Shown piece after piece: positions 3,374-12,511 of a DNA stretch of 12,819 nt. Numbering within the stretch: position 1 is the first letter of the stretch; each line of letters begins with the position of its first letter. The notes below the pieces were generated by a model. That model had not been told where the DNA came from, ran no database searches, and saw only the letters and a program-made list of their open reading frames with translations. The stretch is from Limnohabitans sp. (GTDB lineage Bacteria > Pseudomonadota > Gammaproteobacteria > Burkholderiales > Burkholderiaceae_C), in assembly GCA_015657605.1 (NCBI GenBank), contig JACDQO010000064.1:1-12819 (forward strand), given 5' to 3'. The translations under genes were made by a program, and so were the position numbers.

Positions 3374-3823
3374 ATGATTGACCGTCGGTACATTGGCCAT
3401 CAGATGCCGGGCTTTGAGGTGTTCGTTGAAAAAGGCCGGCTGCGCTTTTTTGCCAAAGCGACCGGCCAGACCGATCCTGTCTACACAGACGAAGAGTTTG
3501 CCCGCGCACAAGGCCATCCGGCTTTGCCTGTACCGCCTACCTTCTTTTTTTGCCTTGAGATGGAGTCGCCCGACCCGGCCGCAATCCGCAACTTGTTGGG
3601 CATCGATTACCGCCGACTGTTGCATGGTGAGCAAGGCTTTACCTACCACCGCATGGCTTACGCGGGGGATGTCCTGCGCTTTGAACAACGCATTGAGGAC
3701 ATCTATGACAAAAAGAACGGCGCCCTCGAGTTCGTGGTGCGCCGAACGCGGGTGAGCAATCAGCACGGCCAGTGCGTCGTCGATTTGCGCAATGTCGCGG
3801 TTCTCCGCAACAGCGAAGGGTAA
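3374..3823 (+). CDS. MaoC-type hydratase, FAS1-like N-terminal (non-catalytic) half
   Basis: A 149-residue single hot-dog domain of the MaoC_dehydrat_N / FAS1-like dehydratase type. Recognisable blocks are FAKATGQTDPVYTDEEFARA (27-46), the conserved PVPPTFFF stretch, LLHGEQGFTYHRMAYAGDVL and the closing strand FVVRRTRVSNQHGQCVVDL. At the position of the R-hydratase motif GDxNPxH this protein has GQTDPVY (31-37), so the catalytic Asp and His are Gln32 and Tyr37. That is expected of the structural, acyl-chain-binding half of a heterodimer. The next gene starts 4 bases after its stop and supplies the complete motif. Together they should form a heteromeric (R)-specific enoyl-CoA hydratase, as in ChsH1-ChsH2 or the mycobacterial Had dehydratases. 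The substrate is unknown. Confidence 0.8.
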   Translation: MIDRRYIGHQMPGFEVFVEKGRLRFFAKATGQTDPVYTDEEFARAQGHPALPVPPTFFFCLEMESPDPAAIRNLLGIDYRRLLHGEQGFTYHRMAYAGDVLRFEQRIEDIYDKKNGALEFVVRRTRVSNQHGQCVVDLRNVAVLRNSEG

Positions 3824-3827
3824 TGGG

Positions 3828-4247
3828 ATGAAAACATCGGTTTTTGATGGGTTGACGGTGGGTGATGACATTCCCGCTTTGACAATGCCCCCCCTGTCGC
3901 GTTTGACGTTGGCGCTTTACTGTGGCGCATCGGGCGACCACAACCCGATCCATGTGGACACCGATTTCGCACACAGCGCAGGCATGCCCGATGTGATTGC
4001 ACACGGCATGCTGTCCATGGCGTGGTTGGCACAGGTTTTGACCCACTGGGTGCCGCAAACAGCCATCCGCGATTACAGCGTGCGTTTTGCGGCCATGACG
4101 CATGTTTGCGAAAGAATCACTTGCAGCGCAAAAGTGACTGAAAAATTCGAACTTCAGGGTGAGCGCCGCGTGCGTTTGGCCTTGACCGCGGCCAATGACG
4201 AAGGCCAAACCAAGTTGTCCGGAGAAGCCGTGATTGCGCTGACTTGA
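3828..4247 (+). CDS. MaoC-family enoyl-CoA hydratase, catalytic subunit
   Basis: A 139-residue hot-dog protein carrying the hydratase-2 motif: ASGDHNPIHVD with catalytic Asp37 and His42, followed by the usual MPDVIAHGMLSMAWLAQVL helix region. It should add water to a trans-2-enoyl-CoA to give the (R)-3-hydroxyacyl-CoA. ATG 3828 is chosen over upstream in-frame codons because GAAGGG (3815-3820) sits 7 bases before it and the protein then begins like its family. The gene lies 4 bases downstream of the partner half-hydratase and just ahead of the crotonase, which points to translational coupling. The partner lacks both catalytic residues, so this subunit should supply the chemistry. Confidence 0.85.
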   Translation: MKTSVFDGLTVGDDIPALTMPPLSRLTLALYCGASGDHNPIHVDTDFAHSAGMPDVIAHGMLSMAWLAQVLTHWVPQTAIRDYSVRFAAMTHVCERITCSAKVTEKFELQGERRVRLALTAANDEGQTKLSGEAVIALT

Positions 4248-4249
4248 CC

Positions 4250-5056
4250 ATGACCCATACATCCTTGCTCCAATTTGAGGTGAGCGAACAAGTCGCCACC
4301 CTGACCTTCAACAGCCCGACCAAGCGCAACGCGCTGGAGCCGGCCATGCGCGAAGAACTGGCAGTGGCCTTGCAGCAAATCCAGCAAGACCACAGCATCC
4401 GCGCGGTGATCCTGACGGGCGCGGGCGGGCATTTTTGTTCGGGCGGTGACCTGAAAAACATCGCCACGGCCAACCTTGACAACGGCGGTTGGCTGCTGCG
4501 CATGCAGACCCTGCATGCTTGGTTGCAGGTCTTGCTCACGCTCGATCGCCCGGTGATCGCTGCGGTGGATGGTGCGGCCGCTGGTGCGGGCTTCAGCCTC
4601 GCCTTGTCCGCCGACTTCGTGCTGGCCACGCCGCGCGCCTGGTTCAACATGTCCTTCCTCAAGGTCGGTCTGGTGCCCGATGTGGGGGCGCTTTATACCT
4701 TGCCCCGCGTGGTGGGCGTGCAGCGGGCCAAAGAAATCATGCTCTCGGCCCGCGACATCGACGCCCAAGAGGCCCTGCGGCTGGGCATCGTGATGGAGCT
4801 GCATGAGCCGGACCAATTGCTGCCCCGCGCTCAGGCCATGGCCCGCAGTTTTGTGGGCGCGTCTCCTGCGGCTGTGGCGCTCATCAAGCGCAGCTTGGGC
4901 ACGGCCCTGGGCGGCGGCCTGCAAGACATGCTGAGCTCAGAAGCGCAGGCTCAGGCTTTGGCCGCAGGCACCGCCGAGCACCGCGAAGCCGTGAGCCGGT
5001 TTTTGAACAAGCAACCGCCCTTGTTTGTTTGGCCAGCCCAAGACAAGCGGTCTTGA
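4250..5056 (+). CDS. Crotonase-family enoyl-CoA isomerase/hydratase, PaaG-like
   Basis: A 268-residue crotonase-fold protein. GAGGHFCSGGDLKN (57-70) and the AAAGAG segment (109-114) build the oxyanion hole that holds the thioester carbonyl. By eye alignment, the two glutamates used by classical enoyl-CoA hydratases are absent: Ser116 stands in GAGFSLAL where the first is expected, and Phe136 in NMSFLKVG where the second is expected. Asp144 in GLVPDVG is kept, matching the catalytic Asp of PaaG-type isomerases (GLIPDCG). I therefore favour a delta3-delta2 enoyl-CoA isomerase or related reaction over simple hydration, which the MaoC pair can do. ATG 4250 is 2 bases after the previous stop. TTG 4244 in the same frame would overlap that stop and is less likely. 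No strong ribosome binding site is seen, so coupling is probable. Confidence 0.85.
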   Translation: MTHTSLLQFEVSEQVATLTFNSPTKRNALEPAMREELAVALQQIQQDHSIRAVILTGAGGHFCSGGDLKNIATANLDNGGWLLRMQTLHAWLQVLLTLDRPVIAAVDGAAAGAGFSLALSADFVLATPRAWFNMSFLKVGLVPDVGALYTLPRVVGVQRAKEIMLSARDIDAQEALRLGIVMELHEPDQLLPRAQAMARSFVGASPAAVALIKRSLGTALGGGLQDMLSSEAQAQALAAGTAEHREAVSRFLNKQPPLFVWPAQDKRS

Positions 5057-5210: not shown

Positions 5211-6131
5211 ATGAGTATGACTGGATTGGTTCAGGACAAGGTGGTGGTGGTCACCGGCGCAGGTGGCGGCATTGGCCGCGATATCGCGTTGGCCATGGCC
5301 CGCGAGGGTGCCAAGGTGGTGGTCAACGACATTGGCGCGTCCGTCTCGGGCGAAGGCCAGGACGCTGGCCCCGCGCAAAAAGTGGTGGACGAGATCCAGG
5401 CCTTGGGAGGCCAGGCGGCGGCTAACACCGACAGTGTGTCTGACGCAGCAGGCGCAGCCCGCATCATCCAGACGGCCATCGACCACTTTGGCCGCATCGA
5501 CGTGGTGGTCAACAACGCAGGCATCTTGCGCGACCGTTTCTTTCACAAGATGAGCATGGACGAGTGGGACGCCGTGCTCAAGGTGCACCTGTACGGCGCC
5601 TTTTATGTCAGCCGCGCCGCTGCCACCCATTTCAAAGAGCAAGAAAGCGGCAACTACATCCACATGACCTCCACCTCGGGGCTGGTGGGCAACTTTGGCC
5701 AAGCCAACTACTCGGCGGCCAAGCTGGGGGTGGCGGCGCTGTCCAAGTCAATCGCGCTGGACATGCAAAAGTTCAATGTCCGCTCCAACTGCATCTCACC
5801 TTTTGCCTGGAGCCGCATGATCGGCTCGATCCCGACCGAAACGCCGGAAGAGCAAGCCCGCGTCGAGCGCATCAAGCAGATGACACCCGCCAAGATCGCG
5901 CCCATGGCCGTGGCCTTGGCCAGCGATGCATCGGCCCACGTGAACGGCCAGATTTTTGCCGTGCGCAACAACGAAATCTTTTTGATGAGCCAGCCGCGCC
6001 CCATCCGATCGGTGCACCGCAGTGAGGGCTGGACGCCGCAGACGGTGCTCGACCAGGCCATGCCCGCGCTCAAGTCCAGCTTTTTTGACCTGGACCGCTC
6101 GGGCGACGTGTTCAGCTGGGACCCGATCTGA
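5211..6131 (+). CDS. Short-chain dehydrogenase, MFE-2-like (3R)-hydroxyacyl-CoA dehydrogenase
   Basis: A 306-residue Rossmann-fold oxidoreductase. It has the cofactor loop TGAGGGIG (15-22), Asp40 at the end of VVVND favouring NAD(H), NNAG (101-104), and the catalytic set Ser154, Tyr167, Lys171 (MTSTSG ... YSAAK). The blocks GRIDVVVNNAGILRDR and GNFGQANYSAAKLG are typical of the dehydrogenase domain of peroxisomal multifunctional enzyme 2. That enzyme oxidises (3R)-hydroxyacyl-CoA, which fits the (R)-specific MaoC hydratase upstream. The C-terminal 60 residues extend past the basic fold and contain SQPRPIRSVHRSEGW and SFFDLDRSGDVFSW, seen in this subfamily. It ends 3 bases before the DUF35-thiolase gene, so the two are probably co-translated. 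Confidence 0.85.
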   Translation: MSMTGLVQDKVVVVTGAGGGIGRDIALAMAREGAKVVVNDIGASVSGEGQDAGPAQKVVDEIQALGGQAAANTDSVSDAAGAARIIQTAIDHFGRIDVVVNNAGILRDRFFHKMSMDEWDAVLKVHLYGAFYVSRAAATHFKEQESGNYIHMTSTSGLVGNFGQANYSAAKLGVAALSKSIALDMQKFNVRSNCISPFAWSRMIGSIPTETPEEQARVERIKQMTPAKIAPMAVALASDASAHVNGQIFAVRNNEIFLMSQPRPIRSVHRSEGWTPQTVLDQAMPALKSSFFDLDRSGDVFSWDPI

Positions 6132-6134
6132 GCG

Positions 6135-7760
6135 ATGACCATGACTGCACAGAACAACAACACCGGCGTCCTCGCCCAGCACCAGGCGGCCCTGGCACAG
6201 GGCCAATTCCTGATCCAAAAATGTGGTGACTGTGGCCAGTACATTTACTTCCCGCGTGAGGTTTGCCCGCATTGCGGCAGCGACCAGCTGGCCCTGGTGC
6301 CCCCCACAGGCCTGGGCACGGTGTATTCGGTGACCACGGTGCGCCGCAAGCCCGATGCGGGCGGCGATTACAACGTCTGCCTGATCGACCTGGACGAGGG
6401 CGTTCGCCTGATGAGCCGCGTGGACATGGACCCAGTGGATGCCGTACAAGTGGGCCAGCGGGTGCAATCCCGCGTGGTGGTCGACAAGGGCCAAGGTATG
6501 GTGGTGTTTGACCCGGTCAGCACGGTTGCCGCCATGGCCAAGCCCGTGCCTCGCGGCCCCGCCGCATCGGCAGCGGTACATACCTCATCGGGCCTCAAGG
6601 CTTTGCGTGGCAGCGCTGCCATTGCGGGTGTGGCCACCTTCGGTTGCGGCGAAGCCACGGGCTTTACCGAGATGGAAGTGCTGGCCCGCGCCGCGCACGC
6701 CGCCGTGGCCGATGCCGGCTTGAAGATGAGCGACATCGACGGCCTGTGCACTGCCAGTGTGCTGTCCACCATGTGGCCCATGCCTGTCACGGAATATTTG
6801 GGCATCAACCCGCGCTACACCAACGGCACCATGCTCGGCGGCTCCAGCTTTGTGGCGCACCTGCTGCCTGCCATGATGGCTTTGCAGTCGGGCCAGTGCA
6901 ATGCCGTGCTGGTTTGTTACGGCAGCACGCAGCGCACCTCGACCTTTGGCCGCGCCGAGATCGCGCAGGCGCGCCGCGTCATGGACCCGCAGCCCTACGA
7001 GACGCCCTACGCCCCGATACAACCGCTGAGCGCTTATGCGCTGGCCACGCAACGGCACATGCACCAATACGGCACCACCCGCCGCCAGTTGGCCGAAGTG
7101 GCGGTGGCCGCGCGCGCTTGGGCGCAGCGCAACCCCGAAGCCTTCATGCGCGATCCGCTGACGATTGACGAGGTGCTGAAGGCCCGCATGGTGTCTGACC
7201 CCTTGTCGGTGCGTGACTGCTGTTTGGTGACCGACGGCGGGGGTGCCTTTGTGCTGGTGCGCGCCGACCGTGCGCGTGACCTGCCCCAAAAGCCGGTCTA
7301 CGTGCTGGGCAACGCCACCGCCAACTGGAACCGCCAGATCTCGTCCATGCATGACCTCACCGTCACATCGGCCAGCCAGTCGGGGCGCGAAGCCTTTGCC
7401 ATGGCAGGCCTTGCGCCCGCCGACATGAACGTGGTGCAGCTCTACGACGCCTTCACCATCAACACCTTGCTTTTCCTGGAAGACCTGGGCTTTTGCAAAA
7501 AGGGCGAAGGCGGTGCCTTTGTTGAAGGCGGTGCGATCGCGCCCGGCGGCCGCCTGGCGGTCAACACCAACGGCGGCGGCCTGTCGTGCACGCATCCGGG
7601 CATGTACGGCATCTTCACGGTGATCGAAGCCGTGCGCCAGTTGCGCGGCGAAGGCGGCGAGCGCCAAGTAGCAGGTGCCCAAACCGCGCTGGCCCACGGC
7701 AACGGCGGCACCTTGTCGAGCCAGTCCACCGCCATCTTGGGCACTTTTGAAACCTTGTGA
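6135..7760 (+). CDS. DUF35 (zinc ribbon + OB-fold) fused to a thiolase-like/aldolase domain
   Basis: A 541-residue two-domain protein. Residues 1-~140 form a DUF35 unit: zinc ribbon C30-x2-C33 ... C44-x2-C47 and an OB-fold starting at GLGTVYSVTTV. After an Ala/Pro linker, residues ~155-541 are an SCP2/lipid-transfer-type thiolase fold with GGSS (235-238), YDAF (437-440), NGGGLSCTHPG (479-489) and HGNGG (521-525). By eye alignment to SCPx thiolase, the nucleophilic cysteine falls at Ser237. The C-terminal catalytic cysteine is also absent, because HGNGG replaces the usual CxGGG. The family includes Ltp2, a retro-aldolase needing the DUF35 domain of ChsH2, and BbsAB, a thiolase with a zinc-finger subunit. 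Likely role: C-C cleavage of a beta-hydroxy- or beta-keto-acyl-CoA. The neighbours allow either reaction. ATG 6135 is used; ATG 6141 is possible. Confidence 0.85.
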   Translation: MTMTAQNNNTGVLAQHQAALAQGQFLIQKCGDCGQYIYFPREVCPHCGSDQLALVPPTGLGTVYSVTTVRRKPDAGGDYNVCLIDLDEGVRLMSRVDMDPVDAVQVGQRVQSRVVVDKGQGMVVFDPVSTVAAMAKPVPRGPAASAAVHTSSGLKALRGSAAIAGVATFGCGEATGFTEMEVLARAAHAAVADAGLKMSDIDGLCTASVLSTMWPMPVTEYLGINPRYTNGTMLGGSSFVAHLLPAMMALQSGQCNAVLVCYGSTQRTSTFGRAEIAQARRVMDPQPYETPYAPIQPLSAYALATQRHMHQYGTTRRQLAEVAVAARAWAQRNPEAFMRDPLTIDEVLKARMVSDPLSVRDCCLVTDGGGAFVLVRADRARDLPQKPVYVLGNATANWNRQISSMHDLTVTSASQSGREAFAMAGLAPADMNVVQLYDAFTINTLLFLEDLGFCKKGEGGAFVEGGAIAPGGRLAVNTNGGGLSCTHPGMYGIFTVIEAVRQLRGEGGERQVAGAQTALAHGNGGTLSSQSTAILGTFETL

Positions 7761-7767
7761 GCAAGCC

Positions 7768-8935
7768 ATGATCCGAGACCCCGAAACCTTCGAAGCCCTG
7801 CTCGACTCGGTGCGTCGTTTTGTGCGCGACCGTCTGGTACCTGCCGAAAACCAAGTCGCTCAGACCGACGAGATCCCAGAATCCATCGTGCAAGAGATGC
7901 GCGAGATGGGTTTGTTTGGCCTGACCATCCCCGAGGCCTATGGCGGCCTGGAGCTGACCATGGAAGAGGAGTCGCGCTTGCTGTTTGAGCTGTGCAAGAC
8001 CTCGCCCGCTTTCCGCTCGGTGATCGGCACCACGGTGGGCATTGGCTCGCAGGGCATCCTGATGGACGGCACCGATGAACAAAAAGCCTATTACCTGCCC
8101 AAGCTGGCCACGGGCGAGTTGTCGGCCTCGTTTGCGCTGACCGAGCCCGACGCGGGCTCGGACGCCGCATCGCTGCGCACCACGGCCATCCGGGGCACAG
8201 ACAGTGAGGGCGACCACTACATCGTCAACGGCACCAAGCGCTACATCACCAACGCACCGCATTCCAAAATTTTCACGCTCATGGCGCGCACCAACCCGGC
8301 CGACAAGGGCGCGGGCGGCGTGTCGGCCTTCATCGTCGATGCCAAAACCCCCGGCATCAGCTTGGGCAAAAATGACCAAAAGATGGGCCAAAAAGGGCGC
8401 GCACACCTGTGACGTGATGTTTGACAACGTGCGTGTGCCCGCTGCCAACCTCATCGGCGGCCAAGAAGGCCAGGGCTTCAAGACCGCGATGAAGGTGCTC
8501 GAAAAAGGCCGCATCCACTTGGCCGCCGTCTGCGTGGGCGTGGCTCAGCGCATCCTGGATGACGCTTTGCGTTACGCCATCGACCGCAAGCAGTTTGGCC
8601 AGCCGATCGCCGAGTTCCAGCTGGTGCAGGCCATGCTCGCCGACAGCAAGGCCGAGCTGTATGCGGCCGAGTGCATGGTGATCGACGCCGCACGCAAGCG
8701 CGACGAAGGGCGCAGCGTGTCGACCGAGGCTTCATGCTGCAAGATGTTCGCGTCCGAGATGTGCGGCCGTGTGGCCGACCGGGCTGTACAAATTTTGGGT
8801 GGCGCGGGCTATTTGTCGGAATACGGCATCGAGCGCTTTTATCGCGATGTGCGCCTGTTCCGTTTGTACGAGGGCACCACGCAGATCCAGCAAATCATCA
8901 TTGGCCGCAATATGGTGCGTGAAGCACGCGGCTGA
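7768..8935 (+). CDS. Acyl-CoA dehydrogenase (one frameshift near 8395)
   Basis: FAD-dependent enzyme that makes the alpha,beta double bond of an acyl-CoA and passes electrons to ETF. The first part (7768-8412) has the N-terminal helical domain, GLFGLTIPEAYGG and the flavin/substrate block SFALTEPDAGSDA (121-133). It runs off frame after KMGQKG. The second part continues one frame forward with AHTCDVMFDNVRVP, ALRYAIDRKQFGQP, the VQILGGAGY block and LYEGTTQIQQ, whose Glu (about 368) is the usual catalytic base. The break lies in A5G3 (8390-8397): one base too many, since removing one restores GQKGAHTCDVMFDN. Repaired length is 388 residues, typical of the family. It starts 7 bases after the DUF35-thiolase gene and should catalyse the first oxidation of the pathway. 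Confidence 0.9.
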
Positions 8936-9928
<993 letters not shown>

Positions 9929-9974
9929 GCGACGGCTCCACCGATTTCCCCAAGCCAAAACCGATGACAACCCT

Positions 9975-9980
9975 AGGAGA
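9975..9980 (+). promoter_or_regulatory. Ribosome binding site of the Bug-type binding protein
   Basis: AGGAGA lies 6 bases before ATG 9987 and selects this start, which also gives a proper signal peptide, over the upstream in-frame extension. Confidence 0.65.
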
Positions 9981-9986
9981 CAAACC

Positions 9987-10971
9987 ATGACAAAAACCCC
10001 ATCCACCCAACGCCGTTTGCTGATGGCCCTTTTGGGGGCGGTGTGCACAGCATCTGCCCTGCCCGTGTGGGCCCAGTCCACAGGCAACAACACCGTCAAG
10101 CTGATTGTGGGTTACGCCCCAGGCGGACCCGTGGATTCATCGGCGCGCGTGTTTGCGCCCGTGCTCAGCCGCGAACTGGGCCAGCCCGTGATCGTGGAAA
10201 ACCGACCCGGCGCGGGTGGTGCGTTGGCGGGTAACACCGTGGTCAGGTCGGCACCCGCGAGCTTGGAGATTTTTTATGCCGCCAGCCCCACCATGACCAT
10301 CAGCCCCCCACGTGCTCAAGGCCATGGCCTTTGACCCGCTCAAGGACATGACCCCGCTGGCCACCATCCTCAGTTATGCCAACGTGCTGGTCGTCAACCA
10401 GAACCAGCCCTTCAAGACCTTGCCCGAGCTGGTGGCCTTTGCCAAAGCCAATCCGGGCAAACTGGCCTATGGCTCGGCTGGCATGGGCGCATCGAACCAC
10501 CTGAGTGGCGAGCTGTTTGCGCGCCGTGCGGGCATCAGCATGACCCATGTGCCCTACAAGGGCAATGCCCCGGCCATGACCGACGTGATCGGCGGGCAAA
10601 TCCAGATGATGTTTGACATCGTGGGCGGTGCCAAGGGCCACATCGACGGCGGCAAGGTGAGGCCCCTGGCCGTGACCTCCAAAGACCGCAACCCGGCCTT
10701 GCCGCAGCTGCCCAGCATGACCGAGTTGGGCATCCGTGATTACGACGTGGGTGGCTGGTACGGCCTGTATGGCCCGCTGGGCATGAGTGCAGAAGTGAGC
10801 CAGAGGATCACCGCTGCGACGGCCCGCGCCTTGCAAGACCCCGAGCTGAACAAGCGCTGGGTGGACCAGGGCTACGTGATTTGGAATGCCAAACCCGCCG
10901 ACCTGGCCGAGCGCATGCGCCGCGAACACGCGCTGTGGGCCGAGGTGACCAAAGGCATGACCTTCGAATAA
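9987..10971 (+). CDS. Bug/TctC-family periplasmic substrate-binding protein (one frameshift near 10303)
   Basis: Secreted solute-binding protein of the tripartite tricarboxylate transporter (TTT) type, which binds organic carboxylates in the periplasm. The N-terminus is a signal peptide (basic QRR, hydrophobic LLMALLGAVC, likely cleavage after PVWA). The ligand-binding signature VGYAPGGPVDSSARVFA and VIVENRPGAGG follow. The frame breaks in a run of six C (10304-10309). With five C the protein reads TISPHVLKAMAFDPLKDMTP, as in the family. The second part continues with KANPGKLAYGSAGMG, HVPYKGNAPAMTDVIGGQIQ and the C-terminal helices. Repaired length is 327 residues, normal for Bug proteins. 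No TctA/TctB membrane genes are in the window, so it is an orphan receptor, common in Burkholderiales. It may recognise the pathway substrate and is followed 3 bases later by the CoA ligase. Confidence 0.88.
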
Positions 10972-10974
10972 AAC

Positions 10975-12511
10975 ATGTCTTTGCATTTGACCGCACCCCA
11001 CACCCGCATTCACCAGCTGTTTGACGAACGCGTCGCACAGGCCCCTGCGCACCCCTTTTTGTATTTGACGCAAGGGATGATGACGCTGGGTCAGTTGGCC
11101 CAGCAGGTGGACCTGCTGGAAGACGAGCTGTGCAAAGCGGGTGTGCGTGTGGGTGACCGGGTGTTGGTCGCCGCCGAAAATTGCCCCGAGCATGTGGCAT
11201 TGGTGCTCGCCTGCAGCCGTGTGGGGGCCTGGGCCTGCGGCGTCAATGCCCGCATGACGGCATCCGAAGTGGCAGCATTTGCTGACAAAGCGGATGCCCG
11301 TGTGCTGTATTTCACGGTGGGCGTGTCCGAGGCGGCGCGCCAGCACGCGGCGCAATACGACACCCAGGCCAGCGTGCTGCCCGGCTTGCAGCGCACGCTC
11401 GTCAGGCCGCAAGCCACAGCGCAAACCGGTGAGCTGGCTGAGCAGGTCGCTGCGATCATCTTCACGTCGGGCACCACCGGACAGCCCAAGGGCGTGATGC
11501 TCACGCACGCCGGGCTGTTGCAATTCGCCCGGGTGTCGGCGCAGTCGCGACAGCTTGGGGCCTCGGACCGGTCTTACGCCTATTTGCCCATGACGCACAT
11601 CTTCGGTCTGGGCACGGTGCTCATGGCTTCGCTGCACGCGGGCTCGGGCCTGCTCATGCGCAGCCAGTTCGACCCGGCCGATGTGTTCCACGCGCTGGCC
11701 CACCATGGCCTCACGCAGCTGCAAGGCCCGCCCGCCATGTTCACCCGCTTGCTGGGCTGGCTGGATGGTCAAGGCATAAGGCAGCCGGTTGCACCAGATT
11801 TGCGCTATGTCTACACAGGCGCTGCACCGCTCGACCTCAGCGTCAAGCAGGCGATTGAAGCGCGCTTTGGCAAACCCCTGCACCACGGTTATGGCCTGTC
11901 GGAATACGCAGGAGCTTTGACCCTGTGCCGCCTGAACGAACAGCGCGCCGACACCAGCGCGGGCTACTTGGTTGAAGGCGCTGAACTGCGCATCATGGGC
12001 CCCGATGGGCAAGACCTGCCTGCAGGCGAGACGGGCGAAATCTGGATGCGTGGCGTGGGCCTGATGCCCGGTTATTTCCGCGACCCCGAGATCACTGCAC
12101 AGGTCATCAAGTCCGGTGGCTGGTACGCCAGTGGCGATCTGGGCCGACAAGATGCCGACGGCGCTTTGCAGGTGGTGGGTCGCTCAAGAGATGATCATCC
12201 GCTCCGGCTTCAACGTCTACCCCGGCGAGGTCGAGGCGGTGTTCCTGGCCTGGCCCGGTGTGCAAAAAGTGGCGGTGGCCGGGCGCAAAGCGGCCGATGG
12301 CAACGAGGACATTTTGGCCTTCATCGAAGCCAAGCCTGGCGCGCAGTTGGACCTGCAGGCCCTGAAGGCCCATGCCCATGAACACCTGTCGCCCTACAAG
12401 CGGCCCACGGCGCTGGTGCTGGTGCCCGAGATGCCCATGACCCTGAGTGGCAAAGTGCTCAAGCGCGAGTTGGTTGAACAATGGAGCGCCGCGCAAACTG
12501 GCAGCGCCTGA
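10975..12511 (+). CDS. AMP-forming acyl-CoA ligase (one frameshift near 12186)
   Basis: Class I adenylate-forming enzyme that activates a carboxylic acid with ATP and CoA, probably the entry step of the pathway. The first part has the P-loop FTSGTTGQPKG (163-173), AYLPMTHIFGLG, YVYTGAAPLDLS, the adenine-binding HGYGLSEY, GEIWMRGVGLMPGYF and WYASGDLG. The frame breaks after VVGRS at 12181-12190. The family continues GRSKEMIIRSGFNVYPGEVE, and EMIIRSGFNVYPGEVE is present in the next frame, so two bases are missing (or one is extra). The C-terminal catalytic lysine follows in TLSGKVLKREL. Repaired length is about 512 residues, normal. Relation to MenE/FadD-like ligases is clear, but the acid substrate is not. 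The gene has no visible ribosome binding site and starts 3 bases after the Bug stop, which suggests coupling. Confidence 0.88.

Follow-up and report, generated by a model that had tools for sequence, protein, structure and literature searches.

A DUF35–thiolase fusion protein of Limnohabitans sp. with the active-site residue pair of retro-aldolases

Known retro-aldolases and the architecture of the fusion protein

The closest functionally described relatives of the protein considered here, a 541-residue fusion of DUF35 to a thiolase-like domain encoded in a 12,819-nucleotide stretch of Limnohabitans sp. DNA (assembly GCA_015657605.1, contig JACDQO010000064.1; the whole stretch is referred to as the window), are two proven steroid retro-aldolases of the thiolase superfamily. 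In Sal-Shy from Comamonas testosteroni (9MYR) Tyr302 is described as the catalytic base and Cys304 as the acid, while in Ltp2-ChsH2 (6OK1; motif YDHF) the pair is Tyr294 and Tyr344, the latter being the acid, with His296 in the oxyanion hole (PMC12329534). DUF35 is fused to a MaoC hydratase in Shy and is supplied in trans, on ChsH2, in the Ltp2 system, whereas in the window it is fused in cis to the aldolase-like part. Benzoylsuccinyl-coenzyme A (CoA) thiolase BbsAB (7PXP) likewise combines DUF35 with a thiolase fold, and the SCP2-thiolase-like protein TbSLP of Trypanosoma brucei (5AB4), for which a YDCF motif is reported, has a match to the window protein that is confined to the thiolase-like domain. 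The nearest solved chain by sequence is a putative thiolase of Sphaerobacter thermophilus (4U4E; 48-49% identity), for which no functional report was found among open-licence PMC papers; it has the motifs GGSS, THPGMYG and HGxGG in common with the window protein but carries YDSF rather than YDAF, and its 383-residue chain is without a matched DUF35 part. On balance, the comparison favours placing the fusion protein among the acyl-CoA retro-aldolases, as a C-C lyase on the thiolase fold that has DUF35 in cis and is encoded in a catabolic operon.

The protein is encoded by a single open reading frame (ORF) starting with ATG, and its features are as follows:

6135..7760, + strand: 541-residue fusion of DUF35 (zinc ribbon and OB) to an SCP2-type thiolase-like domain (ORF list, Pfam, NCBIfam and model)
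6186..6290, + strand: zf-ChsH2 zinc ribbon, residues 18-52, ligands C30, C33, C44 and C47 (Pfam, 1.3e-13)
6306..6473, + strand: OB_ChsH2_C domain, residues 58-113 (Pfam, 6.5e-13; match to 6ok1_B)
6516..6587, + strand: linker, about residues 128-151 (low predicted local distance difference test score, pLDDT; block means 50-68)
6600..7748, + strand: thiolase-like domain, residues 156-538 (sequence and fold matches to solved chains)
6840..6842, + strand: Gly236, at the position of the thiolase nucleophilic cysteine (Gly89 in Sal by the present L-INS-i alignment)
7443..7454, + strand: YDAF, residues 437-440 (alignment; residue roles as described in PMC12329534)
7593..7595, + strand: His487 (THPG), the histidine of the thiolase GHP motif, aligned with Tyr344 in Ltp2 and Gln352 in Sal
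7695..7697, + strand: His521 (HGNGG), where classical thiolases have their C-terminal cysteine (motif comparison)

Thiolase_C_1 is also matched at residues 394-537 (Pfam, 3.9e-69), as is NCBIfam PRK06158.1 over residues 155-541 (680 bits; cut-off 421), and together the Pfam and NCBIfam matches bear out the architecture proposed in an earlier, sequence-only reading of this DNA. The four zinc ligands named in that reading are cysteines in nearly all of 132 aligned DUF35 rows (C30 and C33 in 127 each, C44 in 130, C47 in 128). Sequence searches match the DUF35 part to the DUF35 chains of ChsH2 (6ok1_B; 1.1e-9) and Sal-Shy (9.8e-9); the DUF35 fold is assigned from Pfam and sequence matches because the fold-search rows spanned only residues 154-540. 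DUF35 joined to an SCP2-type thiolase fold without the nucleophilic cysteine is a real 541-residue chain and does not result from an assembly error, since a full-length relative with 97% identity is carried by another locus (L001) and the same fusion is found in 54 of the 120 listed homologues (530-575 residues). The gene is present once in the window's genome bin, which is 62% complete.

Active-site residues and position among thiolase relatives

Of 450 matched proteins, 445 were kept (matched stretch of at least about 330 residues) and thinned to 147 including the window protein, and these rows were aligned with three solved chains using L-INS-i. Positions 236 and 437 sort all 147 rows without exception into a Gly/Tyr group (105 rows) and a Cys/His group (42 rows), and the window protein, with Gly236 and Tyr437, has the same pair as Sal and Ltp2. 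The solved structures divide in the same way, cysteine occurring with HDxF in SCP2 thiolase, BbsB, 7yvy and 6esq, and glycine with YDxF/Y in Sal, Ltp2 and 4u4e. The cysteine of all 42 Cys-type rows aligns to Gly236 and not to Ser237, where the nucleophile position had earlier been placed by eye, and manual counting along the ungapped helix agrees, the next conserved glycine lying 17 residues further on in 6HSJ, in Sal (counted from Gly89) and in the window protein (236 to 253). An hhalign local alignment sets the cysteine on Met233 with a gap; neither alignment places a window cysteine at the nucleophile position, in agreement with the absence originally noted. Ser237 was rejected as a replacement nucleophile, since it lies outside the nucleophile column and is variable (among 55 YDAF rows, Ser in 50, Cys in 3, Gly in 1 and Asn in 1). 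HGNGG does stand in place of CxGGG, as had been pointed out, but histidine is normal there in SCP2 thiolases that keep the nucleophile (HNLGLGG).

Tyr437 is aligned with Sal Tyr302 and Ltp2 Tyr294, and Ala439 with Sal Cys304 and Ltp2 His296. Both published acids are missing from the window protein, which has Ala439 for Sal Cys304 and His487 for Ltp2 Tyr344, and the Sal oxyanion residue Gln161 is not kept either (Pro297 in the window protein by manual reading). BbsB, with HDAF, has alanine at the 439 position as well, but combines it with a nucleophilic cysteine, whereas the window protein has no cysteine at 236 and in this respect is not of the BbsAB type. Of the 94 Gly/Tyr rows in which residue 439 is Ala or Ser, 93 retain His487; in the seven rows with Cys at 439, position 487 is Gln in three, His in two and a gap in two, and the single YDHF row has Tyr there. 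Since 41 of the 42 Cys/His rows also have histidine at 487 (the remaining row has a gap), His487 looks like the ancestral thiolase histidine. Because neither published catalytic acid is present, the window protein is not simply of the Sal or the Ltp2 type, but has the residues of the aldolase clade with neither known acid.

Gly236, Tyr437, Asp438, Asn477 and His487 show no variation in a set of 35 rows made up of the window protein and 34 others that are 36-94% identical to it; 19 of the rows are without a fused DUF35. Such conservation speaks against the fusion protein having lost catalysis and serving, in the manner of PhlA in PhlABC, to hold DUF35 or to regulate a second thiolase, and the other nine window proteins scanned include no thiolase to regulate; this explanation, which would account for the lack of a nucleophile and has a parallel in PhlA, according to PMC2954200 an inactive relative of thiolases that forms part of a DUF35 complex, is considered very unlikely.

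In a tree of 97 sequences (90 of the 147 rows and seven solved chains; quick search, no bootstrap, long-branch warnings), the exchange of Cys/His for Gly/Tyr or the reverse maps as a single change to a branch whose Shimodaira-Hasegawa-like approximate likelihood ratio test (SH-aLRT) value is 100, and the window protein falls in the clade of the known retro-aldolases Sal and Ltp2. The Gly/Tyr pairing is thus one event at one deep split; repeated covariation of the two positions was rejected, as the tree needs a single change only. YDCY rows beside Sal form a separate clade, and a bile-acid or steroid role is not supported.

By sequence, the thiolase part ranks 4u4e first (3.5e-108), followed by Sal (9myr; 1.9e-59), Ltp2 (6ok1; 6.8e-53) and BbsB (1.8e-38). 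An AlphaFold2 model of the fusion protein built from 35 sequences (pLDDT 89.3, predicted template modelling score 0.90) gave 4u4e, Sal and Ltp2 as the top Foldseek ranks. VIA-align scores of the model were 50.9 for Sal, 50.4 for 4u4e and 49.9 for Ltp2, all within 1.0, then 48.6 for TbSLP and 48.5 for the archaeal thiolase 6esq, to which the gap is small, with 7yvy (47.1), BbsB (44.2) and SCP2 thiolase (43.5) lower.

Fused and split DUF35–thiolase genes

The presence of DUF35 and a thiolase-superfamily protein in one chain without the nucleophile had been regarded in the sequence-only reading as a pointer to an aldolase-like or otherwise repurposed C-C lyase. Among 80 related loci compared, the fused state was found in 19 (L001-L017, L022 and L031) and separate neighbouring DUF35 and thiolase genes in 58, whereas no DUF35 ORF was found in three, in which the match sits close to the beginning of the retrieved sequence. 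The DUF35 stop overlaps the thiolase start as ATGA in all five split junctions inspected, and a short gap separates the two genes at some other split loci (L018, L029 and L030). On a quick tree of 95 rows (thinned from 204; no bootstrap, long-branch warnings), the fused and split states require nine changes, of which at least three are imposed by branches with good support and could amount to one gain with two losses. Support is poor at many forks, truncation may account for some of the "split" metagenome proteins, and the split label of two of the three outgroup rows was given without checking for DUF35. The fused state has arisen or been lost on several occasions, gain and loss not being told apart on this tree, and the tree neither shows nor excludes that the window-type fusion arose only once. 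The linker sequence varies between several of the fused lineages, and some linkers look alike. In P0125, which is closely related to a YDSF row, the fusion is in reverse order, with the thiolase first, and is a separate event.

Fusion of DUF35 to thiolase-superfamily proteins had already been stated in 2010 (PMC2954200), and split relatives carry the same active-site motifs as fused ones. Given this early mention, the repeated changes of state, the reversed order in P0125 and the shared motifs, the fusion is uninformative on chemistry, and its reading as a sign of new chemistry was rejected; it is real, but not new in kind. The aldolase-like chemistry suggested on that ground is probably correct in general type, but on other evidence, namely the Gly/Tyr pair shared with the clade of Sal and Ltp2, although both published acids are lacking.

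Operon context and the proposed reaction

The fusion gene lies in a same-strand series in the order MaoC pair, hydratase-family gene, short-chain dehydrogenase/reductase (SDR), fusion, acyl-CoA dehydrogenase, nitronate monooxygenase/FabK-like gene, TctC and AMP-forming ligase:

3374..3823, + strand: MaoC-fold (FAS1_DH, HadA/HadC-like) subunit without the Asp/His hydratase motif (TGQTDPVY; Pfam, NCBIfam, motif comparison)
3792..4247, + strand: MaoC (HadB-like) subunit with the motif GDHNPIH (Pfam, NCBIfam, motif comparison)
4244..5056, + strand: enoyl-CoA hydratase/isomerase family gene (Pfam, NCBIfam)
5211..6131, + strand: MFE-2-type (3R)-hydroxyacyl-CoA dehydrogenase (SDR), start codon chosen manually (Pfam, sequence match)
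7759..8935, + strand: acyl-CoA dehydrogenase in two overlapping frames, 7759-8412 and 8204-8935 (Pfam; one ORF in L001)
8936..9928, + strand: nitronate monooxygenase/FabK-like gene (Pfam, NCBIfam)
10975..12511, + strand: AMP-forming acyl-CoA ligase, two frames in the assembly (Pfam; one ORF in L001)

The MaoC pair (3374-4247) is encoded by overlapping ORFs, only the second of which has the hydratase motif, at what we take to be its position in such subunits. A His/Asp dyad of hydratases is named in PMC11321319, where the ChsH1-ChsH2 hydratases are described as likewise being MaoC pairs. Four genes are split into two frames in the window, at 2-2037 (acetoacetyl-CoA synthetase-like), 7759-8935 (acyl-CoA dehydrogenase), 9885-10971 (TctC) and 10975-12511 (AMP-forming ligase), which suggests assembly errors, since all four are single ORFs in L001. 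The L001 contig is titled Akkermansia muciniphila, yet carries a Comamonadaceae-type operon, and is likely mislabelled or part of a mixed bin.

In the reaction envisaged for the fusion protein, the substrate would be a 3-hydroxyacyl-CoA supplied by the operon's own dehydrogenase and hydratase, and the products an aldehyde or ketone together with acetyl-CoA or propionyl-CoA. Tyr437 would act as the base that removes the beta-hydroxyl proton, and Gly236 in place of the thiolase cysteine would provide room and a backbone NH for the hydroxyl, as proposed for Gly89 in Sal. The enolate would then be protonated, the most likely donor being the retained His487, because Ala439 cannot act. DUF35 would bind and shape the pocket, as in Sal-Shy and Ltp2-ChsH2, and dehydrogenase, hydratase and retro-aldolase would form a three-step module as in steroid side-chain removal.

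The main fact against retro-aldol cleavage is the adjacent and conserved SDR gene, the product of which is nearest to the (3R)-hydroxyacyl-CoA dehydrogenases of MFE-2 and would yield 3-ketoacyl-CoA, a thiolase substrate. Among 56 loci of at least 15 kb (orthologue identity limits 50-65%; raw counts without control loci), orthologues of the SDR are found nearby in 40, of the acyl-CoA dehydrogenase in 39, of the two MaoC subunits in 27 and 31, and of the hydratase-family gene in 31; any acyl-CoA dehydrogenase is nearby in 50 and any hydratase in 37. Together with the MaoC hydratase genes and the retained GHP histidine (His487), this context would suit cleavage of a 3-ketoacyl-CoA without an enzyme thiolester, CoA or water attacking the ketone directly and closing an MFE-2-type beta-oxidation round, as would the finding of no second Thiolase_C_1 protein in the window's incomplete bin. 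To our knowledge there is no cysteine-free thiolase in the superfamily, which counts against such direct thiolysis, and the HDxF histidine, present in 42 of 42 Cys-type rows, is tyrosine in the window protein. A second thiolase-like ORF occurs nearby in 26 of the 80 related loci, and is of the Cys type, with HDCF, in 15 of 15 inspected, one of them matching SCP2 thiolase 6hsj at 470 bits. Sal, with glycine for the cysteine, is moreover stated to be unable to carry out thiolysis (PMC12329534), and direct thiolysis by the window protein is considered unlikely. As a guess, a mixed pathway would reconcile the SDR with retro-aldol cleavage, some rounds proceeding by beta-oxidation (SDR and SCP2 thiolase) and retro-aldol cleavage acting at a block.

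Some other CoA-thioester C-C lyase or condensing activity can also be considered, such as the deacylation assigned to IpfDE, which acts on a dearomatised aryl-acyl-CoA in ibuprofen degradation and of which IpfE is reportedly a DUF35 protein, or aldol synthesis in place of cleavage. Propionyl-CoA is stated to be a product of the ipfDE thiolase (PMC9195938) and PhlABC is reported to acylate phenols, but no ring-attacking oxygenase is among the window proteins scanned, and such an activity is thought quite unlikely.

Four plasmid regions of relatives (58-77% identical) have varied neighbours, including CaiB-type CoA transferases, adjacent acyl-CoA dehydrogenases and 3-oxoacid CoA transferases, which do not fix the substrate. 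The Hydrogenophaga sp. BPS33 plasmid (L188; 9191-17849) carries two DUF35-thiolase pairs, together with genes for acyl-CoA dehydrogenase and CoA transferase, in a stretch flanked on both sides by IS1071 transposase genes. On a Roseovarius indicus plasmid typed as conjugative (L187; 12489-25092), a split pair is accompanied by CaiB-type CoA transferases, acyl-CoA dehydrogenases, MaoC genes and a nitronate monooxygenase-family gene.

No functional report of the window-type family or operon was found among open-licence PMC papers, and the YDAF/YDSF group is publicly annotated as acetyl-CoA acetyltransferase or thiolase. It is tentatively proposed that this group, with its HP motif, may represent a third, widespread class of acyl-CoA retro-aldolase that would use a tyrosine base and the old thiolase histidine as acid to cut tertiary acyl-CoAs. 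If so, the name of PRK06158.1 (acetyl-CoA acetyltransferase) would describe the wrong chemistry for a family of Comamonadaceae and other proteobacteria, a check of two residues (Cys/His or Gly/Tyr) would re-sort the DUF35-linked thiolase relatives, and 4U4E would be an existing structure close to the class. The group would also represent a further route from a thiolase site to an aldolase, beside Sal and Ltp2, and would let bacteria cut tertiary acyl-CoAs such as 3-hydroxy-3-methyl acyl-CoAs to a ketone and acetyl-CoA, where beta-oxidation stalls.
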